Assembly: GCA_023231475.1 (NCBI GenBank)
Contig: JALJEE010002436.1
Span: forward strand, 1 to 64,000
Source: Seison nebaliae
Taxonomy: Eukaryota; Rotifera; Pararotatoria; Seisonacea; Seisonidae
DNA length: 64,000 nt
Reading direction: 5' to 3'
Under the pieces are notes generated by a model. That model was not told the origin of the DNA. It was given only the letters and a program-made list of their open reading frames with translations, and searched no databases. Below are positions 1,338 to 64,000 of the stretch, piece after piece. Position 1 is the stretch's first letter. Every line of letters starts with the position of its first letter. The position numbers and the translations under genes were made by a program.

Positions 1338-3278
1338 ATGTCGAAAAACACAATGATTGAAGCGGATATGTTTGGTTTTGCTTTGATTGGATTAATCACC
1401 ACACCAATTATGAGTTTTTTTGCGTTAATTGTTTTATTGTCATGGTTCGGCATCTCTTTTGGCATTCGGAAGAAGTACGTGAAAATTCTATTGAGTATAT
1501 TCGAAGGCGCATCTGGTGTGAGTACGATAGGAAAGAATAATAGAAATTTGATGTCAAATCTGGTGAGAGAAAGCGAATCTCAATACGATTTGGAATATAC
1601 GAAACCAAAATCGTCAAAACTCGCCGATTCGACTGATAGTGGTCGATATTCGATGGGAGAGAAGACGAACAAACGTCATTCCACCAAGTCACCCAATGAG
1701 GGAGATGATAAACGGAAAGAAATTGTAAATGGAGAATCCGGTTCGAAATTTGAGAAATCTTCAAAAATTACACCCGTTTCTCTTTCAGGTTCCACTGATA
1801 ATTTGTGTCATGAAATTCAATTAACTCGTTTAGATGAGGGCAGTGATGGTAGTGAAAATGAAGAATTAGTTAAAAAGATCGATTTAGCTCATGCCATCGA
1901 TTTCTGTTGTGATGGAATTCAATCGATTGTTGACGATAATGTAACGAAACGATTTAATGCAGCAGGTCTCATTTTATTTTTCAAATATATTTTTTAAAAT
2001 TTTTTTTTAAAATTTTTCTTCATAGAATTGAGAACGTGGAATCTATTAACGAGAACGAACCATCAATACGAATATATTGGAATGGGAGTCAGTTTTCTTT
2101 GGTTCGTTGGATTCATTTTCAGATATTTAATTTTGTTACCATTCCGGTTCGTATTTTTTTTATTGTTACTTTTAATTTTCCAATTAAATTCCATAGAATG
2201 GTCATGTTTATCATCAGCGTTTCTTGGTTGATCATTACCACCACATTGATCGGTTATATTCCACACGGAAGGTTCACATTTTTAATTGAATGGAAATCGA
2301 TCGATGAATTTCTTCTTTGTTCAGATTAAAACAAAATTTCTTTTGGATCGTTAGTTTAACCATTCATCGATTGTTAGCTCGAGTCTTCACCGCTATCATC
2401 ACTCATCATAACAAGTTGGAATTGATGGATATTATTATTTAAATAGATCAATGAAATTATCATTCGTAGAGAGAATCGGGCAAAATCTGATGGAATTTGT
2501 GTGGCTAATCACACGTCACCAATCGATGTCATTATTTTGTCAACTGAAAATTGTTACGCTCTTGTCGGACAAGTTATTTGAATTATAAATTGGATATAAA
2601 TAAATGAAATTCTCATAGAAACATGGTGGTAGTTTAGGCATGTTACAACGAGCCATGTCTCGAGCGACGAATAATATTTGGTTCGAGAGATTGGAAGCAG
2701 CTGATCGACAAGCTGTAGCCAACAAATTGAGAGAACATGTGACGGGAGAGAATAATTTACCAATTCTAATCTTTCCTGAAGGAACATGTATCAATAATAC
2801 GACAGTGATGATGTTTAAGAAAGGTAGTTTCGAAATCGGTTGTACCATCTATCCCGCCACTATTAAATACGATCCGAGATTCGGTGATCCATTTTGGAAT
2901 AGTTCGAAACAATCTATGTTACAACATATTTTCGCCATGATGACCAGTTGGGCGATCGTTGTTGATGTTTATTATTTACCGCCAATGCAACGATTGTCTA
3001 CCGAGTCAGCAATCACATTTGCTAATCGAGTGAAAGAAGCGATAGCTAAAGAAGGTGGTTTCTGTTCGATTCCATGGTTTGTTTTTTTCTTTCATTCTAA
3101 TGATGATGATGATGATGATAGGGACGGAATGGTGAAACGTGTTCGTCCGAAAGAAACGTTAAAGAAAAAGATCCAAGACGATTTTTATGCTTCGTTACGT
3201 CGTCGATTAATTCCAAATGGAATTGATGATGATGATGAGGATGATGAATGTGAAAAGAGGAAAGGATCATCCATCTAA
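1338..3278 (+). CDS. glycerol-3-phosphate acyltransferase 3/4-like (ER membrane)
   Basis: Seven exons: 1338-1965, 2026-2146, 2197-2271, 2325-2414, 2470-2572, 2619-3076, 3122-3278; about 543 residues (human GPAT4 is 456). Acyltransferases of this family transfer an acyl-CoA chain to sn-glycerol-3-phosphate, the first step of glycerolipid synthesis at the ER. The two PlsC-type motifs are present: NHTSPID (HX4D catalytic motif, exon 5) and FPEGTC (exon 6), plus family-typical ATWNLLTRTN-like, KKGSFEIG and MMTSWAIV blocks. A hydrophobic segment lies near residues 10-35 and two more around the exon 2/3 region. All splice phases agree. The extra length is a Ser/Lys-rich low-complexity insertion at about residues 65-165. 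The last intron (3077-3121, 45 bp) is a multiple of three with no stop; splicing restores a conserved P-W-D-G junction. GPAT3 versus GPAT4 cannot be decided. Confidence 0.93.
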
Positions 3279-4065
3279 ACCGTTTTCGCGACAATTCACA
3301 TCTCTCAATATACATCTGGAGGATGATCGGGCTCTCATATCAAATTCCATCTTATCAACGTCTCTAACTTTCACAAATTCAAATTAATTCCAAAATAAAT
3401 GTTAATTCTATCAACTTTACTGTGTCATATTTCCATAAATCAATGGAGCAATCGTTTTCGTCGTCATCATTCTCTAACCATCATATTTTATCTCAACGAA
3501 CTTTATTTGCTAGTTTTCTTTCGTATTTCTCCTCTTGTTCCACGTCGGGGGGATAACTATTCGTTTAACAACACATTTTCTCTTTATTTAAACACACTCT
3601 TCAAAACCAACAACAAAATCTTTTATTTTTCGGTGAAATGATTTTAATTTTGAATAAGTCTTTTAATAATAATTTAATTAATTAATAAACGATCGAATGA
3701 TTATATCAATTTCATAATTCTATTAAATCATTATCTAAACTTGTTTAGGACACCAAACAACAAGATAATATTTATTTGAGAATATTTTTTTTCAAAACTT
3801 TTTTTATTATCGATTTTTGAGTATTATCATAAACAGTTGGATAATTGTCGATATCATACAATTTTTATTATCATAAATGAAATATGTCTCGAAATTGAAT
3901 ATGTTTGTATATAAAGAAAGATAGTTATAATCAAATGTTTATTGTTACAAAATATAAAATATTATACGGAAGTTCAATTGATTTGAACAATGTCGATGAA
4001 TTTATTGAAAATAATTAATAATAGATTACTTCTTCTGTAATTGAATTTGTCAATTAATTGTAAAT
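3279..4065. other. intergenic, includes GPAT-like 3' UTR
   Basis: No coding sequence seen. A perfect AATAAA at 3394-3399 lies about 115 bases after the acyltransferase stop. The rest is A/T-rich spacer before the next start codon at 4066. An 80-codon frame at 3399-3641 has no family resemblance and overlaps the presumed 3' end region. Confidence 0.5.
3394..3399 (+). terminator. candidate polyadenylation signal of GPAT-like gene
   Basis: Canonical AATAAA hexamer about 115 bases downstream of the stop codon. Position fits a short 3' UTR; no transcript evidence is available. Confidence 0.45.
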
Positions 4066-5718: not shown

Positions 5719-7089
5719 ATGAACGAACAAACGTTGAGTTTAATCGACGCTCTCCCATATGTGGACAAGAGTTATGAAGATGCAGGTACGAGAGAAACGG
5801 CCGTTCAGATGATAGAAGACGAAATGAAAAGATTCAAAAAATCGAAGCATTATCTCAAAGGATTAATGGAATCGTTTGATATTCATGAATATGAAACGGA
5901 TAATTTACAAGAACAAATTCGACGAATTGAAGAGAATCGACCAAATGAATTGTTAAATATGAAACGATATGAATTACCAACTCCTTCCAAAATGGATGAT
6001 GAGAAACAATGGAAGAAAGTGGTGGACAATTCATATGCTCAATTAGGACATCAATCTAATCGTATTTTCAATTTGGAAATGTTGATGCATTTCGGTCCAT
6101 ATCAATGGCGTGAATATTGTGATTCACTCGATCAATTGCTCAAGAATGAAACGAGAAGAATGAATGATATTAATGAGAATATACAGAAAGTGAATTATCA
6201 ACGGAAGAAAAATCAAGAAGAAGCTCACGAACAATTAGAGAAACATGAGATGGAATGGGTACAGATGATAACAAATAATTTCCGATTAGAGACACATCTC
6301 AATCAATTGAAAATTGAATTGGCAAATGAATTGAGGAGAAAGAATAAATGTGAAGAATTATTGAAAGAACAGGAATTGGCGAAGAAGAAGAAAGAAATGT
6401 TAGAAGAAATTGAGAGAAATGAAGCGATTGAAAAAAGGAAAAAAGAAGCAAAAAAAGTTGAACTGATTCAGGAAGAATTGAAAGAAGGTGAATCATCTTC
6501 AAAACGTAAGAGAGAAAATGACAATAATAATGAGATGAAAAAACAAAAGATGGACACTGCTGAAATAAATGAAAATCAACAAATTAAAATAGATGATGAA
6601 ATTAAAATTATTGAAAAGAAAATCGAAGAAAATGAAGACGTAGAGATTATAGAAGAAAAAAATGAAAAAGTTGAAATTATCGAAAAAAATAAAAACATCG
6701 AAATTATTCAAAAGAAAACGGGAAAAAATGAAGACATTGAAATTATCGAAAAGAAAATTGAAAATGATGATGAAGTTGAAATTATTGAAGAAAAAAATGA
6801 AGAAATTGAAAAAGTTGAAGAGAAAATAGAAAAGGATAAAAATGTTGAATTTATAAAAGAAAAAAATGAAAAAATGGAAAATAGTGAAAAGAAAATTGAA
6901 AAAGATGAAGATGTTTTGGAAAAAGAAGAAACATTGGAGAAAGCCATAGAAATAAGCGAAAATCGAACGGTTCAATTAACTGAATCAGAACATGACACAA
7001 AATTAATCGAATCAAAACAAAACGCAGATTTATCAAAAATTAATGAAACGAATGATGAAATGGAAAAGGAGTGTAATGAAAGAGTCTAA
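5719..7089 (+). CDS. BCAS2: pre-mRNA-splicing factor BCAS2/SPF27 with long charged C-terminal extension
   Basis: Single exon, 456 residues. Residues 1 to about 215 match the BCAS2/SPF27 family: IDALPYVDKSYE at the start, YETDNL, the signature MKRYELPTP, and AQLGHQSNRIFNLE with the following coiled coil. BCAS2 is a core subunit of the Prp19/CDC5L (NineTeen) complex that activates the spliceosome. Family members are about 225 residues, so this protein is roughly twice as long. The extra half (about 225-456) is almost entirely Glu/Lys/Ile/Asn and contains degenerate repeats of the form (V/I)EIIEKK(I)EENED. A basic KRKREN motif near residue 263 could be a nuclear localisation signal. The tail is predicted coiled coil or disordered; its function is unknown. 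Start chosen as the first ATG, directly before the conserved N-terminus. Confidence 0.92.
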   Translation: MNEQTLSLIDALPYVDKSYEDAGTRETAVQMIEDEMKRFKKSKHYLKGLMESFDIHEYETDNLQEQIRRIEENRPNELLNMKRYELPTPSKMDDEKQWKKVVDNSYAQLGHQSNRIFNLEMLMHFGPYQWREYCDSLDQLLKNETRRMNDINENIQKVNYQRKKNQEEAHEQLEKHEMEWVQMITNNFRLETHLNQLKIELANELRRKNKCEELLKEQELAKKKKEMLEEIERNEAIEKRKKEAKKVELIQEELKEGESSSKRKRENDNNNEMKKQKMDTAEINENQQIKIDDEIKIIEKKIEENEDVEIIEEKNEKVEIIEKNKNIEIIQKKTGKNEDIEIIEKKIENDDEVEIIEEKNEEIEKVEEKIEKDKNVEFIKEKNEKMENSEKKIEKDEDVLEKEETLEKAIEISENRTVQLTESEHDTKLIESKQNADLSKINETNDEMEKECNERV

Positions 7090-7364: not shown

Positions 7365-7370
7365 AATAAA
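7365..7370 (+). terminator. candidate polyadenylation signal of BCAS2
   Basis: AATAAA about 275 bases after the BCAS2 stop, the first canonical hexamer downstream. Confidence 0.35.
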
Positions 7371-8044: not shown

Positions 8045-10412
8045 TAAATAGAAGAGAAAGAGAAGAGAGTTTGTGCGAAGAAGGGCATAGGATTTATGGC
8101 ATAGATTTCGAATGAATGAAGGAAACTATGAATGGGAACAAAAGAAATCTCCCAATAAATAAGCGGACATGGTGTAATGTAAGATAGTCGGGACGATGCG
8201 TTTACAATCCGATCTGTACGATGGTTTTTGGGGTTGGGTGTAAATGGTACGAATGTGTGGGATGAATGGATGGATGGATTGATGTATGGATAATCGTAAT
8301 AAATGGATATTATGTGACAGTTATGTATATGTGGGACTAGATTTGTTGTTTATGTAAAAATTTCAATGAAATGTTGTTGAAGAGAAAAATAAATTGGTAG
8401 AAAATGGTGGGGCGTTAATCGTAAAATATTAGAGGTAATTTGTTAGGAAACAAAACTTTCTTGCCTTACCGTTAGACAATAAACACTTAATGAACAATGA
8501 TGCGTCTGAAATAAATATGAATTTCCTCTGATTTTCGTCCGCGTTAATAGACAATAAAAATATTGTGCAACAAACACAATTTGTTGGTTAATCTTCTTTA
8601 GTTGAACGGTCGTCCCAATTGAAAGTTGGAAAAAAGAATGTTTGAGTGGTGGGCAAATTCAGTTACATAACGTCGAATTTTTTTTGGAATTTAATCATTC
8701 CTTTCTTAAATATTCTGCCAATTACGAATCTATTTTCATTAGTTGGAATTGTTGGATAGAATTCTTCGTCTGTCAAGTCTTCTTGAAATGTTAAGTAGCT
8801 GCCACTAATTTCCATCTCTGTTGCCCCTCACAATTCCACTACTTCTTTCTTTTTATAGTTTCTTCATTCAAATACTTTCCTTACCTGTTATTAAACGTGT
8901 ATTTTCTTTTTTAATTGCTATTCTCATTTCTTTTCTTCATTTCACTTCTTAACTCTACATTCGAATTTCGAAATCCTTTTTTATCATTCCATTCAATTGG
9001 AGATTTCCAATGAGAATTTTAAATTAATCTCGTTACAGGAAACGATAATTACTGGTGTGAGAATAGTTGTCCCCGTAGCAGGATAAAACTCGGCTCATGT
9101 ATTGGTTAGTAGGAAATTGACTTCGACTAATTTTTCTTGCTTTCTCCAACTCTGATACTTCCTCATGCGATCCGTTAGAAGACAAACGAAATAGTTGGCA
9201 GGTAAAGGTAAGTTGGGAAAGAAAGAAGGGATTAATAGTCGTTTCTCCTAATCGAATAGGAAGCAAGTTTCGTGTAAAACTATCGTCGATTGAAATGTCA
9301 TTTGATAATGGAAATAATATGTTGCATATTAACCGAATTGATATTGATATGAGGAGGGAGAAGTATTTTTCGAAATCTTAATTGGTATATCAATCGGATT
9401 AATATGTTTCGTAATGAATTATTCGGTATTTGATGGAGAGCGAGAGATAATAATTCTAAATTGTCACCGACATCACCTTCGTTCATCTGCTCTTCTTTCA
9501 CATTTAATTAGTGGAAGAGAGAGAGTTAGTAGAAATTGTACTGTAGAATGCTTAATTCAAGAATAATATTATTCCCCAAAGATTTATTGAAGAACGATAA
9601 CAATATTCGCATGTCGACGAATGATATGAAGCAGCAGTAATCTCGTTGGAAATGAGCAAACTTTCATTCCGTCACCATTCTTCTAACAATCCACTTTTTC
9701 CCAGTTTTCTTTTTCGTATAATGTCACCATTGTTATGTTGTCACATGATTATTATTCTTTTTGGAATAATGTTCACAGATTAATCTCGTAATCTTCAAAT
9801 TGTTAACAATTGAATGAAGCAACGACATTCGAATCATCCCATCAATTTTCAAATAGTTCATTTTCTGATTTGATGATGTGATAAGAAATTTCAACATTAT
9901 CACCCATATAGTTTTTTTTAATGAAAGAAAAAAGTACAAACGTTCCCTATTAGAAGTGCGAAGTAACTTGGATTAATGAATAATTCGAATGACTAACTGA
10001 TTATTTTAGTGATGATACTTATCGGGGGAGATATTTAATGTTAACTGAGAATTGCATATGTAGTCATTTTGATGATGTAACCTTCACGAATTATTTTATG
10101 ATAATATTCATTTAATGATTCTATAATTGAAGCCAGAAAGTTTTTTTTCGTAAGAATTTCTTCTTTTCTACTATTATTCTCATTCTCTCACTTAACAGGT
10201 AGTCGTGTGTAAATATATTTTCGTTAAACAGTTCATCATAATCATCACCGTTACTTCTCATTCGATGATCATGAACATCATCGTTATATTTATGGGGGGC
10301 GAACACAACAATCGATAATTAAGTGAAAGACAATGAATAGAGAATTTATTGTGAGAATCGTATGAATCATAATGAAATCGATCTTAAATCATTCATTCAT
10401 TCTCGACTGAAT

Positions 10413-27623: not shown

Positions 27624-28592
27624 TTATTCGTTTAATGATTTCGCCACACCGCAACCCATTGCAATTCCCGATATCTATGAAACAAATATGAAAATTTTAA
27701 GGAATTTTAAAAATTTAAAACTTCTATTACCACCGCGATCGCACATATAACAATTAAACCGACGAATGTCTTATAATAGGTAAAGAAACCGACATAACAA
27801 TTTTTCACACAAAGTTTTTTCTACAAAAATTTCCATAAAGTTTCAACCAATCATTCGCTACTAACACTACAAGAACGACAGGAATCTGGTATGGCTTCTC
27901 CATTTTTCGTATAATCTTCTTTACCTCGAACGCCGCAACATTTCTAGAAAAGAAATTAATTTTTAAGAAAAAAATTCAAATAACAAATTTGATTTGCATT
28001 TGATCAATATCATTCCGTTTCTCCGCTTTCAACTTACTGTATCGTTTCATATTATCGCGCCATTCAGTCAAGAATTTTCCTTTCTGAAATATTGAAAATA
28101 ATAATTGATAATTAATTGTTAATAATAATGGGAACTTTCGACAGATAATATCCACAAACGCCAATAACGCCGATTGTTGCGAGAAGGAAAATGATACATA
28201 AAGCGACATACTATATGAATAAAAGAGATGAATAAAATGAAGGGATAAAATCGTTAACGGTATACATTAGACATGGTGATTTTAATGCTGTGGCACATAG
28301 AACTAATATGGCTGGTATGATCAATCCGATACCTATAGCGATGCAGAAACTGCCGAGAACAGCAAGTGCACCTTCCTCACTCTTCACTGTATCAGCGAGA
28401 GTTAAAGAGAAGTTACCAATTTTAATATCTTCCAATTCTGATTTGTGATGGACAACAATATATATACCATATCCCAGAACAACACAACCAGTAATCTGAA
28501 AAGAGAAATATTTCTAATTTTAAATGAGAACTAACGAGAAATATGGAATTAAAAATAATCATGCAAGCCTTCGAACATGTTCCTCCGCACAT
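27624..28592 (-). CDS. tetraspanin (paralogue A)
   Basis: Seven exons on the minus strand: 28592-28536, 28495-28259, 28210-28136, 28083-27985, 27943-27866, 27820-27722, 27674-27624, all joined in phase 0, giving 231 residues. Tetraspanins are four-helix plasma-membrane organisers. Helix 1 follows a Cys-rich N-terminus (MCGGTCSKAC), helix 2 is the segment around LGSFCIAIGIGLIIPAIL, helix 3 is ALCIIFLLATIGVIGV, helix 4 is FVGLIVICAIAVVIE. The large extracellular loop carries the family signature KCCGVRG, then PDSC and two further Cys (SKKLCVKNC), four or more disulfide cysteines in total. The short intracellular tail ends KSLNE. The orthologue within the family cannot be assigned. A related gene with matching exon lengths lies at 31085-32109. 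Confidence 0.93.
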
Positions 28593-28716
28593 TTTTTCCT
28601 ATTATTTAAAAAAGATTTTTATTGAACCCAATTTTTATTTTGGATGGATATTATTCAATTTTATTATCTACATTTAGATGTCTTTCTTTTAAGCGTGACG
28701 GTGAAGCAAATAGAAT
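28593..28716. promoter_or_regulatory. candidate bidirectional promoter, tetraspanin A / mRpS21
   Basis: Only 124 bases separate the two divergent start codons (minus-strand ATG at 28592, plus-strand ATG at 28717), so both 5' UTRs and core promoters must share this interval unless one gene starts inside the other. No TATA box is obvious. Confidence 0.5.
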
Positions 28717-29079
28717 ATGGCGCATAATTTGAAATTTCTTTCGCGCACACTTCTCACTAAGAACAATGACGTCGAAATAACAATGCGCGTTCTAAATAAG
28801 TTTTCCTCTAATTTCTCTTTATTCAAATTTGAAAATATTTTGACGAAGAACTTTGAATAAAGAGAAAGTATTGGAAAATTATCGTCGATGGCAATATTAT
28901 GAGAAGCCGTGTAGACGTCGAATTAGATTGAATTTCGAAAAGTTAATTTCTCTCTTTATTTTATCTTAAGAATTATGTGGTATAGATGTAAGAAAATTTA
29001 TGATAGTGATATGCAAAAGAAGATTAAATTCGTCATGAAGAAACATCGACCATCACCATGGCCATGGAATGAATTCTGA
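28717..29079 (+). CDS. mRpS21: mitochondrial small-subunit ribosomal protein bS21m
   Basis: Three short exons, 28717-28799, 28849-28941 and 28986-29079, phases 2 and 2, encode 89 residues (human MRPS21 has 87). The exons are too short to stand out as long open frames. Conserved landmarks: MAHNLKFLSRT at the start, RVLN, then the diagnostic YYEKPCRRR, the junction FEKCKKIYDSDM, and KKIKFVMKKHRPSPWP at the end. bS21m is an rRNA-binding subunit of the mitochondrial small ribosomal subunit. The spacing between landmarks equals that of the human protein, which fixes both splice sites (49- and 44-bp introns). It lies between two tetraspanin genes, head-to-head with one of them, and its stop is 182 bases from the convergent PDHX stop. 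Confidence 0.93.
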
Positions 29080-29174
29080 AAGGAATTTTATTTAGACTCT
29101 CAAAATGTTTCTATTTCATAAAATGTTCTTGTCATTTGAACGTTAAATTAATTATTTCCTTAAAAGAATTTCGT

Positions 29175-29180
29175 AATAAA
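29175..29180 (+). terminator. candidate polyadenylation signal of mRpS21
   Basis: AATAAA about 95 bases after the mRpS21 stop, inside the 182-base gap to the convergent PDHX gene. Confidence 0.4.
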
Positions 29181-29261
29181 TTAGATAAGACAAAGAAATT
29201 TCGGGATGATTTTCAAAAGTAATTGAAAAGTAAATGAGAAAATAATTAAAGTGAGAAACGA

Positions 29262-30732
29262 TTATAATCGATCAACTAATAATTCTTTATTATTAATCGA
29301 TTCACTATTTAATATCGATTCGTCATTAACGACCATTTGTAATGTTGATAAGAATGTTGATGCTTCCACTTCATTCACGATATTTCTGTTATATGATAAA
29401 GTTATTCGTAGACGAGGGAAAAATTTTAATTGTTCTGTTGATTGATCAATGTCGACGTCTTGACGAATTCCTCCTAGAGCGAGAATTGCACGTTGTGGTG
29501 GATTGATGACTGCTGTAAAATGAGATATACCAAACATTCCCAAATTTGAAATGGAGAATGTTCCACCTTGGAACTCATCTAATTTCAAATTATTCGATCT
29601 AGCTCGATAAGCTAAATCTTTTAAAGTTGATGAGATTGTTGAAACAGAAGAACAAAATTTATCTTTGACAATTGGAGTGATCAATCCGTTATCAGTAGCA
29701 ACTGCAATTGATATATCGGTGGAGTGGGAAATCTGATCTGAATTACCATTAAGTTGTGGAACTCTCTTTAATGATTCTGATACACATCGAATAATATAAT
29801 CGTTAATTGAAATTCTCTCACTTTTGGATTGAAGTGATGAATTATAAATTTTACGACATTTCATTATAGTCGTCATTGGTAGATCGATTGTCTGATATTC
29901 GTGAGGAATCGTTTCTTTTGATAAGGTGAGACGTTGTGCTATTACTTTTCTCATCGAACTTAAAGAAATTTCTTCAATTGATCGGTTATCTAATGATTTC
30001 GTTTCCATCGAACTTATTTTTTGTTGTGATTTTTCTATTTTAATTTGTTTCGTTTCTTTCGTCAAATAATTAACAACATCATTTTTCGTCAATGTTTTGA
30101 AGGGACCAGATGCTTGTAAATGTTCTATATTCAATTCATTTTCTTCTATCAATCTTCTGGCGGCTGGTGAAATTAAATGAATTTCTTTTGAATTTGTTTC
30201 TTTTATTTTTTCTGTCATTGTCGCTGAAGTAGAAACATGTGAAGATTTTTCTGAAGAAGAAGTTGATATTTCAATATCATCAATTTTGACTGATTCCCAA
30301 TCGTCACCACTCTCTACCATCACACCAATTAATTCACCAACTTTTATTTCACCTGAATCTTCATTTTTCTTCAAAAATCATCAATAGAATTTACTTAATG
30401 AAATTTTGAGTTATAACCAGAATTTTCGCTAATATTCCATCTTCTTCAATTTCCATTCCGACGATAGTTTTATCCGTTTGAATTTCACATAATATATCAC
30501 CGGCAAATACTTCGTCACCCTCTTTCTTCTCCCATTTGGTGATGGAGCCGATCTCCATCGTGGGAGATAATGATGGCATTTTCAGCGGAATCTGATCTAT
30601 AATTAAAATTGTTGGGAGCATCTTCAATGAAAAAAATTAACCATACATGATCCATGATGTTGAAAAAGGACTCGAAAGAGTTTTATGCAAATTAGACCAT
30701 TGTTTGTATTTGATATTCTTCAAATAATTCAT
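29262..30732 (-). CDS. PDHX: pyruvate dehydrogenase complex component X (E3-binding protein)
   Basis: Three exons on the minus strand, 30732-30642, 30596-30418 and 30368-29262, phases consistent, 458 residues. PDHX tethers dihydrolipoamide dehydrogenase (E3) to the pyruvate dehydrogenase core in the mitochondrial matrix. Order: leader of about 30 residues rich in Lys/Ser; lipoyl domain ([11 protein letters not shown], lipoyl-lysine motif TDKT, then GDDWESVKI); E3-binding domain ([11 protein letters not shown]); acyltransferase-like domain ([39 protein letters not shown]). In catalytic E2 subunits the end of this domain reads DHRVVDG with the active-site His; here it is YNRNIVNE, so His and Asp-Gly are lost. 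That, and the GDDW motif, point to PDHX rather than DLAT. Length is close to human PDHX (501 with leader). Confidence 0.92.
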
Positions 30733-31084
30733 TTTCGTCGAAGAATTTTTTCACGGGAGAAAGCTTCCAATTTAAAATATCTAATATCAAATGAAAACAA
30801 TTCTAATTCATATTAAGCCACTAGGTCTAAGAAAACTACATTTATTTCGATATTTCTTATAATAATTTAACATATCATCAATCGATTATTTGATGATTTA
30901 TTTCCTAATAATTAGGAAAAATTATGAAACTTTATTGATGGAAATTGAAGAAATGTTAAGTTTATTTCTATAAAGAATTTCTACATTTCTATCTGTTTTT
31001 GAATCATTTTAATGTTTTCCCATTATTTTTTTTCATGGAAAATTTAGAGAAGCAAGTAACTGTTTCCCGAAAAATGGTAATCTA
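30733..31084. other. intergenic spacer, PDHX to tetraspanin B
   Basis: A/T-rich, 352 bases, no coding sequence seen. Both neighbours are on the minus strand, so it should contain the PDHX promoter and the tetraspanin B 3' UTR. Confidence 0.5.
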
Positions 31085-32109
31085 TTATTTTGGCACAAGT
31101 AGATTAGGATTCATTGAAGCAACTTCAGTTTTACTGAACTTCTTTATACAATAAATACCCAAACCGACTCCAATTATCTATAAATAAATATAATTAATAT
31201 GCAGAAAAAATAATTTAAAATGAACTTCCACAACAACAGCTAAGACGATGATCGCAATGGATATGACGAACAATTTTTGATTTTCGTAAAAAGCACCATA
31301 ACATGTCTTCTTACAGATTTTCCCCTACAAACAATTTTTAAATTTGAAATGAACGAATTTGAGAGATAACATCACAAGTTTTACAACTTTCTGGTATATC
31401 CTGTGAATAATCAGTATAATCTTGGGGACCACTAGCACCACAACATTTCTTCATATATTTATTAATAAGATAAATTCGAGAAATTGTCTAACGAATTTTT
31501 CCTGCAATACATCGATATCCTGTCTGATAGTTTCATTCAAACTATTATATTGATGCATATGGTCGGTGGCCGATCGTAAATAAGACGCTTTCTTTTTTTA
31601 AATTTATTTTCTCAATTTAAAAAAAAATATTAACTCGATGTAATTTATGTGACAAGACACCTATCATTACCACCGATCCGATAAGATAAACGAGACAAAG
31701 CGTTACATACTAAATTTTCAAATGCCATTAATATTTATGTTTGAGAGATTGAAAAAGGAAACTAGAATCATAAGAGTTTTCGATTCGTTCGATGCTGCAC
31801 ATATGACCAAGAGTGCGGGAATGCACATTCCAAGTCCGAAAATCGCCATAAATATTCCTACAACTGCCATAGCCATCTTTTCATTTTGAGCAGCATTCTC
31901 AACTATTTTCGTAAAATCGCCGTCTGTAAAGTCGGTGAGAGCTTTCCGATTTTTTATGACGACATAAATTCCCACAACGAGACATGTTAGACCGATTATC
32001 TAAAAAATTAATTTAATTTGAATGTCTCCCTCGGAAAGTTTTAAAAGGTAACGAGAAAGATTGAATTAAACACTATCAAGCAAGTTCTAGTAATTTTTGC
32101 TCTCGCCAT
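31085..32109 (-). CDS. tetraspanin (paralogue B)
   Basis: Seven exons on the minus strand: 32109-32053, 31999-31763, 31709-31635, 31591-31493, 31448-31371, 31324-31226, 31177-31085, all phase 0, 245 residues. The first six exons have exactly the lengths of paralogue A (57, 237, 75, 99, 78, 99 bases). Helix 1 (TRTCLIVFNSIFLIIGL) resembles paralogue A closely; helix 2 (VVGIFMAIFGLGMCIPALL), helix 3 (VTLCLVYLIGSVVMIG) and helix 4 (FVISIAIIVLAVVVE) are clear. The large loop has KCCGASG, PESC and KICKKTC. The tail is longer than in A and ends NLLVPK. The pair is an old tandem duplication by structure; sequence identity outside helices and Cys motifs is modest. Confidence 0.92.
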
Positions 32110-32543
32110 ATTCTTCACTTAAACAATCTGTTCTTTCGATTCTAACTTATACAACATCTTTTATATCATTGCGCGTATTATATAACAAATGCGCTCTCAA
32201 TATTCTATTGTTCTTTTTTGATTGTTCAAAAAAAAATGATTAAATAATTAGAAAATTAAAAAGAAGAAATTGAAAAAAGTTTTAAGACGTTCACCTAAAA
32301 ACAAATATTATTCATAATTTATGATTTTTTCCTTTAAATTTAATTTTGTTAAAAGAAATGATTATCCTAAAAATTTGATTAACATATGAACGATTAATAT
32401 TCGATTATAAAAATATATTTTTAAATAATTAAATTTCTGAAATGAAACAACTGAAAAGAAAAGAATTAAAATAACAAAATTTTGATTAAAACTATAATTG
32501 TAACAATTGTTTGGTTGCTATGTTAACATTATAATGTAATATT
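32110..32543. other. intergenic spacer
   Basis: 434 bases, very A/T-rich, no coding sequence. It should include the promoter of tetraspanin B (starting at 32109, minus) and the 3' end of the following minus-strand gene. Confidence 0.5.
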
Positions 32544-34076: not shown

Positions 34077-35500
34077 TTAGTCAAAAAAGTTGAAGGGAAA
34101 TCTCTTCCAAATAAATCGGTTAACCTTATCCTTCATCAAGTCCTTTCCACACGAACGAGTTCGGATCAGATGCTTCTTATCCAACAACGAATGAACAGTT
34201 GAATTTCTTTTAAATCGTTGAACAGAATTATTAGCGGAAGCTCCTGGGCCGGCAGATGTACTATCGATGGAAGACAATTCCCAATCGAATTCATCGCCAA
34301 CATTTATCATACTCTCCTCTTCGTCGTCGATGGAATTATTCCTGAATTTCTTCTCATTATGATTAATGATTGCTGAGAATTCACTTCCATATTTATCTTC
34401 GTATGTCTGTCGAACTGCACTGTCGATCGCTTTATCTAGTTCAGTCCGATCGAGATTGAGTTCGTCGACGATATTTTTCATATTATTTTTCAAACGTAAC
34501 TTTTCTAATGCCAATTTATTGGGATTTGTTTTATTTAAATTTGTCGATTTGTTCGGAGAATTGGGAGATATTTTCTTTCGATTTAGATCAGTTTTCAGTT
34601 GATCTGATTCGGAGAGAGGCATCGAAGGAGACGAACTGAGATGTTGAATATCTTGACATAAATTATCCATATCTGTCTTTAATCGACCGATTTGCTCCAG
34701 TGCTTGATCGACAACTTGACCATCCTCTAATTGAAGAGTATCCGTCGAATTACTCTTCTTCATACTGTTCTGCATACTCGACGGTTTAGTTTCGATACCG
34801 GAATCCACTTCCGTAAAAATAGCAGATCGATGCCAAATTCCTGATTTTAATTGATCTAAATCATTCTGCAACTGTATCAGACGATCAATATCATTCAAAT
34901 TATGTTGATGAGAGAAGTTAAGATTAATATGTCGTCGATCATGGTTACGTTGAGAGAATCGTTTATATCTTCTTCTCAATTGCTTCTGACGATTTTCGTC
35001 ATTAAAAACATTTCGAATAATTTGTTCGTTGTTGAGGAAAAACGTCTCATCATCATTACTTTGATGATGATGATTATGTTGTTGTTCTTCTTCTTTGAAT
35101 TCTTCATTAACAATTACATCTTTTCGCTGTTGTTGTTGCTGTTGAATTGTGTTGTATTGTTTGAATTGTGGAGTGATGAATTGAGTTCTCGTCTCGTCAT
35201 GTTCTCGAACTTCTTTCAATTCTTCTGTTCTCACTGCAGCAGCGATCGCATCGGTTAGTGGAGTACGTGAGAATAACAATTTCTTGCACAGTTTACACAG
35301 GAGACAGAAACCCACACCAATACCAAAACCAATGAGACAGTAGAGGATTTCTTTGCCGCGAACTATAAAATAAAAATTTGAAATAAGAATTTTTCGTTAT
35401 TTAAATTTGGACAATTGTCGATATTTAATCAGTTACAATTTTATTCTTGTAATTATAAAATTTTAAAAACAAACGACTCTCAACATTGTTCTTGAGGCAT
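34077..35500 (-). CDS. unknown N-terminally anchored membrane protein with coiled coils
   Basis: Two exons on the minus strand, a 16-base first exon (35500-35485) and 35362-34077, phase 1 junction, 433 residues. Residues about 6-30 form one hydrophobic helix (EILYCLIGFGIGVGFCLLC) followed by CKLCKK, consistent with an N-terminal signal anchor. A Gln/His/Glu-rich stretch follows (QQQQQQ, HNHHH), then amphipathic heptad-like segments (IDRLIQLQNDLDQLKSG; QALEQIGRLKTDMDNLCQDI), an acidic DEFDWELSSIDS motif and a basic C-terminus. The plan recalls N-anchored organelle-surface proteins such as RMDN3, but no TPR domain is present, so I do not assign it. The tiny first exon is inferred from an ATG, a GTTGAG donor and frame agreement; without it the protein has no ATG before the helix. 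Confidence 0.62.
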
Positions 35501-38500
35501 TTTCTTTTCATTTTTCCCCTTTTTATTTCGTCCCAAACGAACACATCTTCTCATGTTCCGAGTTTATGTGATAATCATTTCCATAATTAAAGTGAGAAAA
35601 TCGTAAAAGTGAGAAAATATTCATATATATATTTATAAATAATCAAGGAAGTTTTTTCCTTCAGAAAATTTTCCATTTCAATTAAAAATGAATCGAGTCA
35701 ATTCGATTAATATGTTTTGAGAAAGACACAAAACTATCACTACGATTAGTTGAGGCAGTTGTTGGGGGGGAAGAGTTTGGAATGAGAACGAAATAAATCT
35801 CTGAAGTAAATTAATGATTGTATAAAGAAGAAAAGAAGTTTTATTTGGAAAGAATGAAATTATTTATTTTCATATCATCAATAATTCAAACGTTCAAATC
35901 ACATAATTTATTTCTATTCATTCAATCATTTCATTCATTCGTCTACATAACTTAAACGCATCCTCTTTCATCATCACAACATCATCATCATCATATCGTC
36001 TATTAGATTTCGTAAATATATCTATCTATTATCATCATCTATCTGCCATGAGATTATGCTCAATTCAATTTATCATTTATTTATCTAAATATCATCCGAT
36101 TACCAATCGTCTTATTGCTTAAGGATAGTAATCTTGAATCTTGTTCTCTATTATCATCATCATTCCTTCTGATGTGGAGAATGTACTCAAAATAATTCAA
36201 ATTCTGCTGATCAATATCTGATGTTGCTAATACTATTCCGCTATGATGGAACAATTTCCCCATTTTTCATAATTATCTTCCTTCCTTTCGAATCATCATT
36301 GTCAGAATCGTTTCTTCCCCTCATGTTTACCATCTGACAAACAGTACCCGAATGACAATAAACAGAAACTCTAAATGTTCCTCAAAGGATTGTTGACGTT
36401 GGAATTGGTAAATTAAAAGACGAAGAAATTGTAAACAAAACTATTTCTCCTCTTTTCCTCAACATCACTATCCCAATCACATCAACATCACTTACCTGAT
36501 CGACACCTCTAACTTCCCGTGAATTACATAAAAGATATAAATTCTCCCACCATATTAACATCGATAATATTTGACCTGAATCGTTGGAGTCGAATTCACG
36601 TCCTCCTCGAAGTTTGAGGAAGAAAAACCAGAACTATATGGAATTGTTTCGAGAGTAATAAAAAAAATTGTAAAAAACGAAAGTTTTCTTATTGAACAAT
36701 TATAGGTAATGTTCCTTTCAATAAAGTTCATTGCAACAATTTTAACAAGAGTTCCATTCCACAACTTTCAAGAACTGAAATAATTCCTTCTTCAGGTAAC
36801 TCGTTGAACATTAAACGATTATTAGTTCTCATAATAACCAGAGACGTTTTTAACTAATTTGCATAAGGCGACAAAATAGAACTTGAAAAACTAACATTTG
36901 ACGACGAGAACCGGCTCCTTGTCGATCGCGGGTATTGATACGGCAAACGTATAAACTTTCATAATATTATTTCCTTTATTTGTTTGCCCAAAAAATGAGT
37001 AAATCGAATAAATTGAGTGAATTTAATTGAATTGAGTTGAGTAGAAGTTGGTGGGAGAATTTGAAGAAAATATAAGAGAATTCTTTCTTCAATTACGACT
37101 TTATTGTTGACATATGAACGTTGATAGATAAGTATCGGATGTGGATATTCAGGTCATATTTGTATTTACCATTTCACCGCAAAATTTGATCTTTTTTCTT
37201 ATTGAAACATTTCAACAACGTAACAACTTCTTAATCTTTCTATTATCCTCCAAACGATTGAATCGGTCGACTTTCCTTCCGAACACGACTTGTTTACTCT
37301 TACTCAAAAACTTCTAAAACTTAAAATAAGATGAAATTAATGGAAAGTTTGGACAATAAAACTAGAAAGAAGACATTGTCGTTTTTATAAGGAGTCTTGT
37401 TCAAACAACGACTTAAGAAAGAATGTACATCAATCACTATTAGTGAAGAGAATTTTCATATATAGTGTAAGTTTGATATAAAACATTCGACATCAAATTT
37501 GCACAGATATTTTCGATGGTAATATCCATTGGTGTGAAATTTCTTTGATGATGGCAGTAAATGGCATTACGTTCCAAACAAAATAAAACTGACATCAATT
37601 ATTGAACATTTCGGAGAAATTTGAAACGATCAATTAAATTCGCATTTCTGACTAAAACTAACACGATATATCTAAATGGTTTCAACTATTCGATACGCTG
37701 TAAACTTTTTCATATTTACTCCAACATCAACGCTCATTCAATTTACCATCAGTTTATTGGGGCAAATCTCAATTGGTGGAATTTGAGGAAATTTAATGGT
37801 AAAATTAATATTGTGTCGAAATATTCTTCCTGTCTGCAAACGACTGAAAGGAAGAGGACCCCGTTAGAGAAACATGTTTTCCCTCAAGCCACTTGGCCAA
37901 CGTTGTTTAAGGAGTTAATATGAAAATGATTAGGAAATTAGACACTCAGCTGCCACCATCGAAACAACAACAGATGAATATGAAAGTAAACAATTCAACC
38001 GCACACAGCGTTAATTGATTTTCAATACGTTAATGTGAATTGGTGTTTTTTTTTGGAAGAGTTCTTCTTCTTCCATACCATAATATCGATATACCTCTCC
38101 ACTACGAAGTTTTTCGGAAAAATGAATATTTTAATATAATTATTAAAATTTACGTTTTAATAGAGAAATAAAGTCATTTCTCACAATTATATATTTACTT
38201 TCAATTGATGTTCTTACTTGACGATATTTATGTTCTTTCAAAATTAATTGACGGTGATCGAAACGACGGGTCGGATATTGAGGAAAAGTCTCTCGCAGAG
38301 AATTTCGAAAGAGTTTATGAAGAACTCTTCCACTTGACTAGCTCGAGAATGAGGAAATCGAATATGAGAGTAAAAGGACACCATACTTAGGTAAAGTAAA
38401 TAAATTTTAATTCTTTCTTCTAACTCTCGTCTACTTGAAAGTTTGTGAACGGGACATTTGAGGAGACAATAAAATGATAAAGAAAGTTGTCTAGAGAAAA

Positions 38501-41517: not shown

Positions 41518-43248
41518 ATGAAAATCATAAAATTATCGAAAATCATCAGTCGTCGTCATTTTTTTTCGATGTCAGTCAACGAATTGAAAAGAAAGTTTAT
41601 TGAAAAGCCAAATGGAAATGATGGGGAAGTTGTTGATGAAATAAAAAAACTGAAAATTCCCAAGAGAAAAATTGCTCTGTTTATGGGATATTGTGGCGAG
41701 AATTATTTCGGATTACAACGGTTTCCTATCAATTCTTTACAAATATTCTAAAATTCCTTATCAGAAATGTGACAGATAAAGAACATCGAACCATAGAAGA
41801 TGAATTAGTTGAAGCGTTAAATGATATTGAAGCGATTACGGAAGACCAGAAAAATAATATGTTCAAAGTTCCATTTGAATTTATTTTAATTCGATAAATT
41901 ATTAATTAAATAATTCCTTCGATTTTAGATGCAATTTCAACGAGCAGCAAGAACAGATAAGAATGTCTCAGCTGGAATAAATGTCTTCTCAATTAAATTG
42001 CATTTGATAGAGAATATTGTTAATAAATTGAATGAAAGATTACCGGATCATTGTCATGTTTATGGTTCCAATTCCATCATCTAAATTATATAAAATGAAA
42101 ATAATTCCTTCTAGATATCATTCGAGCTACGAATAGTTTTGATTCGAAGAATTTTTGTAGTGGAAGAACTTATCATTATCTATTACCCACATTCGCTTTC
42201 TGTCCAATCGAACAACTAACAACCGAGTCATACCGTCTTGATGGTTTTCTAATAATGTCTGATAATAATTTCTAATTATTCAATCTTCTTCTTCTTCTTC
42301 TTCTTCTTCTTCTTCTAGAGAAACAATGGCAAATTGCTCATGATTCTTTTCAGCGATTTTTGGGAACAAATAATTATCATAATTTTACCAGCGGTAAAAA
42401 ATTCACCGATCCCTCAGCGAAGAGATATATGAAAAATTTGACAGTTCACTTCTTCAACTATTCTCTCTGACATTTTTCCATATTTTTCAGATAAGTAAAC
42501 CATTTATTGATGATAATGATTCGCTTGAGTATTGTCTCATTTCCATCACCGGACAATCATTTATGATGCATCAAATTAGAAAAATGATTGGTTTTCTTTT
42601 GAAATATTGTCATTAAATTAGAATTAGAAAATTTTTTTGATTTAGGAACAGTCATTGCCATAGTTCGAGGAATGGCATCTTCGAATTTAATTGATGAATG
42701 TTGGACGGCTGACAAGATCGATATTCCGAAAGCTCCAGGATTAGGATTGATGTTGGACAGTGTTAGATTGAACTCAAAAATTTCCTTCAATTTTATTAGT
42801 TAGATTATCGTCTCTACAATATCCGTTTCGAAAATGATGGAATTCATGAATTGATCGAATTGGAGAAATATCGTGTTAGAAACTCAAATTTCTTTTCCCC
42901 TTTCATATTTCAATTTGATATTGGTAGGAAGAAATTGATAAATTCAAAAAGAAATTCATTTATCCAAAAATTTATGAGAAGGAGAGAACGACGAAATCGT
43001 TAAATTTCTCGATTTTAGAATTAATTTAAATATTTTCAAATTTTTATAGAATGTTCAAATGGCTCCAAATTCTTCCGTGTCATTCATTTGGTACAATGTC
43101 ACCTGGTTATCCGCCTGGTGCATATATCGGTCCTGGGCGAGCACTTTACATGATAGAGAAATATGGAGAGAAAAAAGAAGAAAAAATTGTAAATATAACG
43201 AGAAAAGAGAATGATGATAAAACTGAAATAGAATCGAATAAAAAATAA
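41518..43248 (+). CDS. PUS1: tRNA pseudouridine synthase PUS1 (TruA family)
   Basis: Ten exons: 41518-41720, 41765-41867, 41929-42064, 42115-42243, 42319-42443, 42491-42590, 42646-42761, 42800-42874, 42928-42998, 43050-43248, phases consistent, 418 residues. PUS1 isomerises uridine to pseudouridine in tRNA (and some mRNA) in nucleus and mitochondria. The catalytic block QRAARTDKNVSAG contains the active-site Asp of TruA enzymes. Other landmarks: KIALFMGYCGENYFGLQ, GRTYHYLLPTFAF, YHNFTSG, GQSFMMHQIRKMIG, APGLGLMLD, and the C-terminal MFKWLQILPCHSF. The N-terminus (MKIIKLSKIISRR) may be a mitochondrial leader; a second ATG at 41566 would give the form without it, as in mammals. The tail beyond residue 365 is Gly/Pro then Lys/Glu-rich and lineage-specific. 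The intron ahead of exon 5 has a CTT repeat as its polypyrimidine tract. Confidence 0.94.
42284..42316. repeat. CTT microsatellite abutting a 3' splice site
   Basis: About ten tandem CTT copies running directly into the TAG acceptor of PUS1 exon 5, so the repeat itself serves as polypyrimidine tract. Confidence 0.9.
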
Positions 43249-50929: not shown

Positions 50930-53112
50930 ATGGTCAGCCAAAAAAGACGATTATTGCGCAACAGTTGTTCGAATAATAAAAAAAAAAGTCGAATTGATTT
51001 GGAGTCGATTGCGGAAGTGATTGTGCGGGAGTGTATAAATAAAGCAATTAACTCTTTTATGATTGTCGATTCCGTAGACGATACAGATATGTCCAATTCT
51101 AATCAAACAACAACAACAACTACTACTACTACTACTACGAGTAATAAAATCGATAATATATCAGATAATGATATCATACCAATATCGACAGATGGTTCCC
51201 CAATATTTTTCATTTTCAAATTAAATAATTGTGATAGATAAAATGTTAATCGACAATGATATTAACGATAAAGAATTTAAGGATGATGATAATGATGAAG
51301 TTTTATGTGAGACGACCGACATATTTCGAGATAGATCTGATCACATCTTCCTCAGTCGATATGAGAGAGAAGTATACTTTTTTCAGTCTTCATCCTTCCT
51401 TTCTTTTAAATAGAACAATTCAAGTCGTCTCATCGCTCAACCGATAATCGGTCCGATTGGAGAGGATATTGAATATGTTACTTTACCTCATTACAACGAA
51501 GAGAATTGGAGAGAACTTCTTCAGCTTTTATCTAAACCCATTACATCCACCAAAGATTTCCAAGTTTTACTTTATAAATAAAGATAAATATATTTAATTT
51601 AAAAAAAAATTTTTTTAGCATATCATTTTGAGAGATCGAAAAATTCCACGTCATTTTGATGGGCTTCATTCCGTACTCAACGAAGAGTTTCCCAAACCGT
51701 TGAAGAAGATCTTTTTCAATCAAGTATTTCCAGGAATTGTTAACTTGGTCATTGACACACCGAAATTATTTCCAAAAGTTCCCCTTAATAATTAATCGAT
51801 TCCCATAATAAATTTATTCGTTTCAGCGTATTCCTTGTCTGAATGGCGGAAGAACTATGGCACTCACTCTCAGTCAGCGACAATGTGCTTGTTTATTGGC
51901 GAATGCATTTGTCGGAACTTTCGAAGGTGCAAAACATCGAATGTTGTCATTCAATTTCGTCAAGTTCATTTCTCATCAATTTCCAAATTTTAAAATATTT
52001 CTTCTCAAAGTTTCTTCTCCCGACGTAACGAAGAGAAGTTGAAATGTATTCTCAATTATTTCAAACGAATTATGGACGACATGCCTGAAGGTCTCGTCAC
52101 TTTTCGTCGACGTTCTTTACGTCGTTTCTTACATTGGAATGAATTGAACAATCGTTTGGATTTGAAGAGATGTAAAGTTCAAATATTCGACAAAGGAACA
52201 ATTGAGGATGATGACGATTGTCTACAAGTGGATTTCGCTAACAAATATATCGGAGGTGGCGTTCTAAATCATGGATGTGTCCAAGAAGAAATTAGATTTG
52301 TCTTGTGTCCCGAAATGATCGTTGCCAAATTATTCACACAGAAATTGGAAGACAACGATTGTCTAGTGATGATTGGTTAATTAAATTAAATTAAATTAAT
52401 TTTTAAATAATTTTCATTTAATTTTTTTTTCATTTTATTTTTCATTTTTGAAGGTTGTGAACGATTTTCCAATTATGTGGGATATGCGAGAACTTTCGAA
52501 TTTAGTGGTAATCATGAAGATAAAACTCAACGGTCAGTTTCCTTAAATATCCTCATTAAATTATTTGAAATTAATTGCATTTTCTTTCAGAGATTCATTT
52601 GGAAGAATAAAATGTCGTGTGGTGGCAATTGATGCGACGCGATTCATTCGATCACCAACACAATATTCAGAACGATTCATTTTAAGAGATTTAAATAAAT
52701 GTTTCATCGGTTTTATGAGAGATCGAACTGATGAATTATCTCTACAAAATGTACAAGCAGTTGCAACCGGCAATTGGGGTTGTGGCGCTTTCAATGGAGA
52801 TGTTTATTTAAAAGTTATTTTTTAATTTATTTAAGAAATTTTTTTTTTCAAAAAATTTCCTTTCAGATCTTATTACAATGGCTCGCATTGCTCATGATAC
52901 GACGAGATATGAATTATTACACTTTTGGGCATAAAGATGTCAAGAGGAAATTCGAAGAATTCCTCACACAACTACAAACGTTGACGGAAAAATACACAAT
53001 AAAAATGGGTCAACTATTTCGAATCGTTTGCGATTATCATCAGACGAACAGCAAAGTAGAATTATATGATTTTATTCTCCAATCTCTCGAAGATTTATAC
53101 AAAGAAAAATAA
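50930..53112 (+). CDS. PARG: poly(ADP-ribose) glycohydrolase
   Basis: Nine exons: 50930-51194, 51238-51371, 51414-51563, 51619-51777, 51827-51963, 52011-52375, 52454-52532, 52591-52813, 52867-53112, phases consistent, 585 residues. PARG cleaves ribose-ribose bonds of poly(ADP-ribose). The catalytic macrodomain is complete: signature GGG...QEE (IGGGVLNHGCVQEE, with the catalytic Glu pair), VDFANKYIGGG, TLSQRQCACLLANAF, PEGLVTF, NYVGYA, ATGNWGCGAFNGD and YYTFG. The regulatory N-terminus is short: a basic KKKSRIDLE segment, a pure Thr run of about 11, and an acidic stretch, in total about 130 residues against several hundred in human PARG (976). The ATG at 50930 is the first in frame; upstream sequence is open but lacks ATG. 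The stop lies 38 bases from the convergent KATNIP stop. Confidence 0.95.
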
Positions 53113-61305: not shown

Positions 61306-62993
61306 TTATTGTCTGATCGGGTAATTGGTGGAGCTCATATTACTACTTCCTCCATTTTCACCACCTCCGTATTGACTATCTGTAAAATGGAATAAAAATA
61401 AAATTAATAAATTTTCTTATTAAATTTCATGATCAATCAATTAATCGTTGTTATCAGGGTTAAAAAGCTCTATAATTCTAAATTCATCATTATTTCTTTC
61501 TGTGATTTGAATTATTTCTCATCATAATCAAAATTTTCAATTTCATTAATAAATCAAATTAAATCTACTAACTATATGGTGTCATTCTGCTTGTGTATGA
61601 ATTGTTTCGGAAAGCGCCACCTCCACCACTTCCACCAGTTGATGCTCCTGAAGCCCCGTTACTTCCATTTCCACTTCCACCTGAATATGTGTAATCATAA
61701 GCATTATTATAACTATCATCTAAAATGAGGAGAAATGATAAAAGAAATCAAATGGAAAATATTACAAACATCGATAATTATTTCTGTGATAACCCGAATA
61801 ATTTGAATTGCGTCCTCCACCGACACCACCTGATCCACTTCCACCACCACCGCCTCCCATCGCGTTATTATTATTCTGATAATCACAATGGAAATTACCA
61901 CCACGATAACCGCCAGTACTTTCATTGAATGAATTAGCACTTCGTGCTTGTCCTTGATTGTAACTGTCGTAACCATAAGGTGGTGGTCCGCCACTTGGCA
62001 TTTGATTGTCGTATGATGCATAATGTCCTTCATTCATCGGATAATTCCTTCCCATATTATTATTACGTCCTTGCATTCCCCCTCCATATGGTGGCATATT
62101 TCCACCAAAACTTCTTTCATTATGTCGACCATTCTGACCGGGAGCGGCCATTTTACGGAAACGATTATATGGCATATCTTTCGGAATGGCTTTCTTCACA
62201 TCCAAATCGATACTTTTAATTCGATGATGTTTTTCTAAAATAATCTTATCTACTGGATCATAATCGCTATATGTGACAAATCCAAATCCTCGAGGTTTTC
62301 TCGTCTCTTTATCCGTCATCAAAACACAATCCAAAATTTCTCCATATTGATTGAAATATTGTCGAAGATCCTCCTCACTGATACCTTCCTTTATTCCTCC
62401 AATGAACAATTTCTTCACTGTCATTTGTACTTCAGGTCGACCACTCTCTTCACGTGGCATAGCTCGTTTCGGTTCCACTTCTCTCCCATCGATGATATGT
62501 GGACGACTCTTCATCAAAGCATCAACCATCGTTGATCGAGAATATGTGACAAATCCGAATCCTCTAGATCGTTTCGTATGACTATCCTTCATTACAACAC
62601 AATCTACCAAACTTCCATATTTCTCGAAATGACTTCTCAATGTATTGTCGTCAGTGCGGAAGTTCAATCCTCCAATGAACACTTTACGAAATTGTTCTGG
62701 TTCATCCTGAGAAGAAATCGATTAAAATTAATTTTAAATTTAATACAAACCATCTCTTCCGATTTCCTCAAATCATTACTATTATTATTGTTGTGGTTGG
62801 GATTGGCAACGACGACTGGATGGACAACGGGATTGTCGTTCGGCATATTGCTGCCGGAAACATCTAACGAGTTGTTCATATTCGCTTCGTTCTTAACTTC
62901 CATATTCGACATATTATTTCGTTCTACTGTTGGTAAGTTTGAATATTCTCCCTCGCCCTGAATATTATTATTAATATTATCTCCTGAAATCAT
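61306..62993 (-). CDS. hnRNP A/B-family RNA-binding protein
   Basis: Four exons on the minus strand, 62993-62751, 62706-61770, 61719-61573, 61379-61306, phases consistent, 466 residues. hnRNP A/B proteins bind pre-mRNA and regulate splicing and mRNA transport. After an Asn-rich N-terminus (about 85 residues) come two RRMs: RRM1 with RNP2 VFIGGL and RNP1 RGFGFVTY, RRM2 with LFIGGI and RGFGFVTY, linked by the family-typical VEPKRAMPREE and ending DPVDK...VKKAIPKDM. The C-terminal half is low-complexity Gly/Asn/Tyr/Ser (NMPPYGGGM; MGGGGGGSGSGGVGGG; SGYHRNNY), including a prion-like Y/N/G pattern and a PY-type end (MTPYNSQYGG). Insect Hrb87F/Hrb98DE and vertebrate A1/A2B1 are the nearest relatives. 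The last two introns lie in the Gly-rich tail and could support tail isoforms. Confidence 0.94.
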
Positions 62994-63848
62994 CTCTTTT
63001 CAACTTATTTGCTGCGTATCTATAAATTCTTCTCCTTCTACGATCTATATATAATATATCTAATATACGATTACTCGATCTCTTCATTATTCAGAAAATA
63101 CACCTATCATCTCTCTCCCCTCTCCCACAATGTATTATTTATGTGCATTCTTCATTACATGTAGGTACACGATGATGCACCCTTCACCAAACAAACATAT
63201 CAACTTCGGTACAGTTGTACGTGGACAAAAAAAAACATTCCATCAATCCAACTTGTACATGCGAAATTTGATTGGGACAGCGGGAAAAAAGAGAAAGAAA
63301 CAATATATTTCATATGTACCTTCAATACTAATGTATGTACATTCACTTTCTACAACGAGATATTCATGCGAGATATTCAAACAAGCCCTCTCATATCTTA
63401 TCTTATTCGACGTACATGTGTTCTACATTCGCTAATTCGATCACATCGACATCTCTCTCAAACACAAATGAAAATAGGCAGACACAATCAGAAATGAGTA
63501 CAAGATATAACTAAAGTAATAGAGGACAAGAAAATGTTATTTAATGTATCGTGATGGATCGTCCAATAAACAACACGAGTATTCATGGATGAATTTCCAT
63601 TTAAAAATATTTGCAGAATGAGAAAATATAATTTTTGCTAAATAATCAAATTCAAATGTCAAGCTTCACATTGTAATTTGCATGTTATTCGAATCAATTC
63701 ATTTTATTCTCTAATAAACGTTTTTTACCTTTCTTTAAGTATAAAAAATAAAAATGAACATTTAAATTTTTGGCTTTTAATCGAAAATTCAAAAATTTTA
63801 AATTTCTCCATACACAACTTTACATAATATTCTAAAATTTTTTACGGT
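62994..63848. other. intergenic region between divergent genes
   Basis: 855 bases, with no supported coding sequence. A pyrimidine-rich stretch just 5' of the hnRNP start (63000-63120) and A/T-rich spacer. A 101-codon frame at 63130-63435 has no family resemblance. Confidence 0.45.
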
Positions 63849-64000
63849 ATGGCATCGAAGAAGATTCGCAGTGAATATAATTTGAATGAATTGAATAAAA
63901 TGGCGAATGAAGTTTGAATTGATCGGATCCGTTCTCCTATAGTGGAATTTGCAGGAAGTTCAATGTTCATTTGAAGGATATGATATTACAGCTGACGATC
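63849..64000 (+). CDS. 5' end of an unknown gene, possibly UBC/E2-like (cut by window edge)
   Basis: An ATG at 63849 opens a 21-codon exon (63849-63911, MASKKIRSEYNLNELNKMANE) followed by a 43-base GTT...CAG intron and a second exon from 63955 (EVQCSFEGYDITADD) running off the window. The arrangement of a short KKIxxEYxxL helix followed by QCS...DD resembles the N-terminus of ubiquitin-conjugating enzymes (helix 1, then QCSAGPVGDD). With only 36 residues this is a weak suggestion. Confidence 0.35.

Follow-up and report, generated by a model that had tools for sequence, protein, structure and literature searches.

Few sequences in eukaryotes are as strongly conserved as the 5' end of U1 snRNA. 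In animals this end, AUACUUACCUG, pairs canonically with the donor CAG/GURAGU; the standard register places C8 opposite G at intron position +1, A7 opposite U at +2, and U6 opposite A at +3. Changed 5' bases in engineered suppressor U1 snRNAs and in human variant U1 genes can redirect the choice of donor. Earlier studies are reported to have found no clear link between donor variation and the complementary U1 sequence (PMC10599564). Two reports on Entamoeba histolytica give GUUUGUU as the donor sequence of this organism, in which no U1 snRNA was found (PMC6085484, PMC13292270).

The present analysis started from a window of 64,000 nucleotides of Seison nebaliae, which is part of contig C695 in a genome of 36.0 Mb and 846 contigs. 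Seison is a small epizoic marine animal, kin of the rotifers and acanthocephalans (Syndermata). The GC content of the examined DNA was approximately 30-33%. The Seison genome paper (PMC8351084) describes compact genes and an assembly, GA2, with 31.9% GC and 36.5% of the metazoan BUSCO genes missing; in its main text, the word "intron" occurs twice, "splice" once, and "snRNA" not at all. Our literature search, which judged most papers from their titles and the openings of their abstracts and took in few subscription journals, found no report on Seison donors and none of U1 position 6 shifting together with +3.

GTT at Seison donor sites

Our intron survey covered approximately 0.3 Mb of the 36 Mb genome, and GT and AG ends were imposed in all intron searches. 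The first-pass gene finder, which used coding statistics, GT and AG only, and flat donor sites, was run over the window, the U1 and U6 loci, and a further 20 stretches of this genome. Among the 75 introns for which the exons on both sides had support, 52 were GTT, 8 GTC, 8 GTG, and 7 GTA, whereas T followed 9559 of the 23535 GTs (41%) in this DNA overall. Word over-representation gave no useful donor signal. With re-estimated site models, the second pass yielded 148 introns, or 139 unique introns after removal of duplicates from overlapping loci, and these consisted of 126 GTT, 9 GTA, 3 GTC, and 1 GTG; at the other GTs of the same genes T followed in 2547 of 6903 cases (37%). For the window alone, the count was 46 GTT, 4 GTA, and 1 GTC among 51 well-supported introns, and 80 GTT, 4 GTA, and 2 GTC among all 86 predicted introns.

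Since the re-estimation of site models reinforces itself, the GTT excess was checked in other ways. Splice-aware alignment to the solved homologues PUS1, PARG, IFT70, ZnT8, IFT172, and PMCA2, with any GT..AG allowed, placed 36 donors, a count that retains the doubtful junctions of the ZnT8, IFT172, and PMCA2 alignments. There were 35 GTT, one GTC, and no GTA or GTG (binomial p ~2e-14); four genes contributed 22 introns (21 GTT and the GTC), and two further genes 14, all GTT. Thirty-two of these donors coincide with those of the ab initio models, and the other four, possibly misplaced, are all GTT. When GTT was the only donor allowed, the alignment score equalled that obtained with every GT in five of the six genes, the exception being PARG with its GTC intron, while restriction to GTA and GTG cost 87 to 444 score points across the six genes. 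Furthermore, our own spliced products are the same as the deposited proteins SNEBB_002363 (hnRNP), SNEBB_002359 (PARG), and SNEBB_004344 (LUC7L3-type), whose models imply 16 introns (14 GTT, 1 GTA, and 1 GTC). A purine at +3, the norm of canonical metazoan U2-type introns, was found in 10 of the 139 ab initio introns and in none of the 36 placed by homology. Thus the original prediction, in which 52 of 59 introns began with GTT, was upheld by homology, by the ab initio set, and by the deposited models.

The possibility that base composition or the gene finder created the GTT junctions appears negligible. T is already the commonest base after GT (41%), and the re-estimation step is self-reinforcing; however, with flat sites the real GT..AG combination gave 127 GTT of 159 (80%), against 29-51% T when that program was given TG, CA, GA, TC, or AG as pseudo-donors, and both the homology-only placement (35 of 36) and the three deposited proteins speak against an artefact. 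Pairing GT with GA, a wrong acceptor, left 93 GTT of 147 (63%), which is what would be seen if true donors were still being chosen. With flat sites, 14 of 20 donors in 45 kb outside the training DNA were GTT, and with the learned acceptor 12 of 14; a stricter threshold left 7 of 11 and 6 of 8, respectively.

Table 1. Positions of introns in the window and of the canonical U1 gene in its locus
Feature	Donor	Position	Strand	Placement
PUS1 intron 1	GTTTCC	41721..41764	+	homology-only and ab initio concur
PUS1 intron 2	GTTCCA	41868..41928	+	homology alignment
PUS1 intron 3	GTTCCA	42065..42114	+	homology alignment
PUS1 intron 4	GTTTTC	42244..42318	+	homology alignment
PUS1 intron 5	GTTCAC	42444..42490	+	homology alignment
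PUS1 intron 6	GTTTTC	42591..42645	+	homology alignment
PUS1 intron 7	GTTAGA	42762..42799	+	homology alignment
PUS1 intron 8	GTTAGA	42875..42927	+	homology alignment
PUS1 intron 9	GTTAAA	42999..43049	+	homology alignment
PARG intron 1	GTTCCC	51195..51237	+	deposited SNEBB_002359 identical
PARG intron 2	GTATAC (exception)	51372..51413	+	deposited SNEBB_002359
PARG intron 3	GTTTTA	51564..51618	+	deposited SNEBB_002359
PARG intron 4	GTTCCC	51778..51826	+	homology and deposited SNEBB_002359
PARG intron 5	GTTCAT	51964..52010	+	homology and deposited SNEBB_002359
PARG intron 6	GTTAAT	52376..52453	+	homology and deposited SNEBB_002359
PARG intron 7	GTCAGT (exception)	52533..52590	+	homology and deposited SNEBB_002359
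PARG intron 8	GTTATT	52814..52866	+	homology and deposited SNEBB_002359
hnRNP intron 1	GTTTGT	62707..62750	-	deposited SNEBB_002363 identical
hnRNP intron 2	GTTTGT	61720..61769	-	deposited SNEBB_002363
hnRNP intron 3	GTTAGT	61380..61572	-	deposited SNEBB_002363
Canonical U1 gene		L002 1501-1664

Within the window (Table 1), all nine PUS1 introns and six of the eight PARG introns begin with GTT, as had been predicted; the other two PARG introns are GTATAC and GTCAGT. For the two tetraspanins, also predicted to use GTT throughout, a merged ab initio model (27851-35511) that should hold both genes has GTT at all 14 of its predicted introns. The list of exceptions fared less uniformly: GTCTCA (with low support), GTAAGA, GTATAC, and GTCAGT were recovered, but GTCATT, GTACGA, and GTGAAT are absent from the final window junctions. 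At 61762-62721 (-) the window encodes an RNA-binding protein (hnRNP) with 100% identity to SNEBB_002363 of Seison nebaliae; its full spliced model is the deposited protein of 466 residues. A SNORD36-like C/D snoRNA (35.1 bits, cut-off 30) lies at 61447-61531 (-), inside hnRNP intron 3 and on the same strand.

The introns are short, with a median length of 53, and 108 of the 139 measure 38-70. Beyond GU, the strongest donor base is U at +3. The donor can be written as (A/G)/GUU, with A, C, or U as the usual next base; in the 148 introns before duplicate removal, G was rare at +4 (3%) and present at +5 in 26%. The base at -1 was A in 65, G in 41, U in 23, and C in 10 of the 139 introns, so that A and G are both enriched in comparison with exonic GTs (A 28%, G 17%). 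In canonical U2-type introns of metazoans, the main conserved bases are G at -1 and G at +5, both of which are in the minority here. The U12-type donor is RTATCCTT, and none of the 13 listed non-GTT donors has the U12-type start GTATCCTT; GTT donors cannot match GTATCCTT. Among the GTT donors, G at +5 accompanies A at -1 in 9 of 62 cases and other -1 bases in 25 of 64 (p 0.0025), a pattern resembling the coupling of -1 and +5 that PMC10599564 describes for other donors.

U1 snRNA genes and other splicing components

A covariance search for U1 (RF00003, cut-off 69.5 bits) detected four genes with 97.4-112.9 bits, all above the cut-off; as 41 of 293 candidates were scored, further U1 genes may exist. 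The gene at L002 is the sole one of the four with the canonical 5' end AUACUUACCUG. Those at L001 and L003 have AUACUAACCUG, and that at L004 has AUACUAACUUG, in which A at position 6 (A6) is joined by U at position 9. A6 was thus found in three of the four detected genes, at three separate places, and with 97-113 bits against the cut-off of 69.5 these A6 genes are not chance matches. In the standard register, which we assume here, U1 position 6 faces intron position +3, and so the change from U to A would restore pairing with U at +3; in the same register, the U1 base opposite the shifted donor position is its complement in three of four genes. The number of pairs with the donor separated true donors from other GTs with an AUC of 0.81 for A6 U1 and 0.69 for canonical U1, a comparison that is partly circular because the gain of A6 is the +3 excess itself.

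The four genes are 62-67% identical to each other. Of the 46 consensus pairs they form 43, 42, 40, and 37, and 23 of the 46 show compensatory double changes; this retention of the U1 fold speaks against their being pseudogenes. In the three A6 genes the loop AUUGCAC, the U1A site in stem-loop II, is intact, while the canonical gene has AGAGCAC in stem-loop II, and its particle may lack U1A. A 3' element, AATTAAACT, is common to the A6 genes, U5, and one U2 gene, and the other U2 has a near match to it; it is missing from the canonical U1 gene. An upstream word containing CACTTT is common to canonical U1, U1d, U2a, U5, and U6, with no exact form at L001 and L003; since the canonical gene shares this word, it may well be transcribed. 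On contig C208 (G000), a canonical and an A6 U1 gene, at 6576-6739 (+) and 8280-8439 (-), face each other 1.5 kb apart. A genome scan for ATACTNACNTGGC gave six matches, namely the four U1 genes and two other sites (C629:103997-104009 and C448:6506-6518); the latter are U1-5'-like words without a U1 match and were rejected as U1 genes.

The original prediction had also suggested compensating changes in U1 or U6. Its U1 part agrees with A6 in three of the four genes found, but a compensating U6 change finds no support, as the single U6 gene found has a canonical ACAGAGA box. The recognition sequence is intact in the single U5 gene found and in both U2 genes read, out of three found. The three U2 matches lie at L029, L030, and C796:78598-78799, the third with 78.7 bits and the other two with 139 and 135. 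In its sequence the U1C zinc finger is close to that of human, and a METTL16-family match is present. A genome search for U11 snRNA gave no match, as did its positive control. One LUC7 gene was found (L026-L028, C540), which is LUC7L3-type by the names of many matches, and none of the LUC7L/L2 type was found in the incomplete assembly; that the LUC7 complement is linked to the weak G at +5 is only an idea. The rotifer spliced-leader exon had no match genome-wide at up to three mismatches; the spliced leader may have been lost or changed in Seison.

Recognition of U at +3

Judging from the sequences, Seison very probably uses a changed code at +3 to read its 5' splice sites, with A6 U1 as the working form, and we interpret this as U1 and its splice sites having co-evolved naturally. 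A6 would pair with U at +3, and the working U1 snRNP would then recognise (A/G)/GUU instead of AG/GURAGU. U9 of the L004 gene would pair with A, the commonest base at -1, and the genes with C9 would pair with G; the enrichment of both bases at -1 fits the presence of U9 and C9 genes. The canonical U1, with U at position 6 and C at position 9, may serve the few GTA and GTG donors and might be a remnant of the transition, in which duplicated U1 genes would have let both codes work together and allowed the donors to change gradually. After the hand-over to U6 snRNA, U at +3 would be tolerated with ACAGAGA unchanged. As to the altered or relaxed recognition proposed originally, alteration fits +3, and relaxation fits the frequencies of G at -1 (41 of 139) and +5 (26%).

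Possible, although we lean against it, is a split code in which the U1 types U6/C9, A6/C9, and A6/U9 would serve G/GURA, G/GUU, and A/GUU donors, respectively. The weak association of G at -1 with GTA donors (6 of 9, against 34 of 126 GTT donors; p 0.02), which over all non-GTT donors is 7 of 13 (p 0.057 against GTT), points in this direction, as it does towards the canonical U1 serving the residual GTR donors.

The canonical U1 could be the abundant form, which would run counter to A6 U1 as the working form. An unlikely explanation of this kind is that U at +3 is selected mainly after U1, by U6 and Prp8 or by U1 proteins, and that A6 U1 is secondary or minor. Entamoeba lives with GUUUGUU donors and no known U1 (PMC6085484, PMC13292270), so that a U1 change is not strictly required; furthermore, a structured canonical U1 gene persists in Seison, and a G-U wobble between U6 snRNA and U at +3 is conceivable in the assumed register. 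However, U6 is unchanged, G at +5, a main U6-contact base, is weak (26%), and exactly the fitting base occurs in three structured U1 genes, the existence of which makes an Entamoeba-like route less likely in Seison. It is far less probable still that selection was relaxed in a small AT-rich genome, that donors drifted to T, and that spare U1 copies changed by drift. The GC content of about 30-33% and the minority of G at -1 (41 of 139) and +5 (26%) would agree with such drift, but T is found at +3 in 91-97% of introns against 37% at other GTs, and drift would neither maintain the U1 fold with compensatory changes nor give the identical A6 in three genes.

If the changed code with A6 U1 is true, part of a near-universal code of intron recognition has apparently been rewritten in Seison. 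A change in U1 at a single pairing position, matched by donors in unrelated genes, would serve as a natural experiment on how a code shifts when U1 is duplicated and its old and new forms coexist, and the step that selects +3 (U1, U6, LUC7, or U5) becomes testable. If the split code is also true, the recognition of 5' splice sites in an animal would have been naturally rewritten and divided up by a multi-gene U1 family. Predictors that expect GTR donors may annotate Seison genes wrongly, and such errors would bear on claims of gene loss in Seisonidea, for which the genome paper gives 36.5% missing metazoan BUSCO genes in GA2 (PMC8351084).

Comparison with known systems

Seison resembles the canonical animal system in that its four genes are U1 by covariance model and fold and that one of them has the canonical 5' end; its introns were taken to be GT..AG. 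It differs in A6 in three of the four genes, once with U9, in the GUU donors, and in the weak G at -1 and +5. Entamoeba histolytica resembles Seison in U at +3 throughout the consensus and in short introns; no U1 was found there, whereas Seison has four U1 genes, the fitting base, and weak G at +5. The diplonemid S. specki, as described in PMC12621601, also has a canonical U1 accompanied by a second U1 gene whose 5' end is changed, but the altered stretch there is a run of C and matches the donor logo no better, whereas the single base in Seison fits most donors. Fritillaria borealis is likewise an animal lineage with a shifted donor sequence; however, according to PMC13326754, its U1 5' ends are unchanged and the shift is ascribed to U2AF paralogues and m6A. 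Finally, the engineered suppressor and human variant U1 genes are artificial or minor, whereas in Seison three of the four detected U1 genes are changed and match most of the introns examined.
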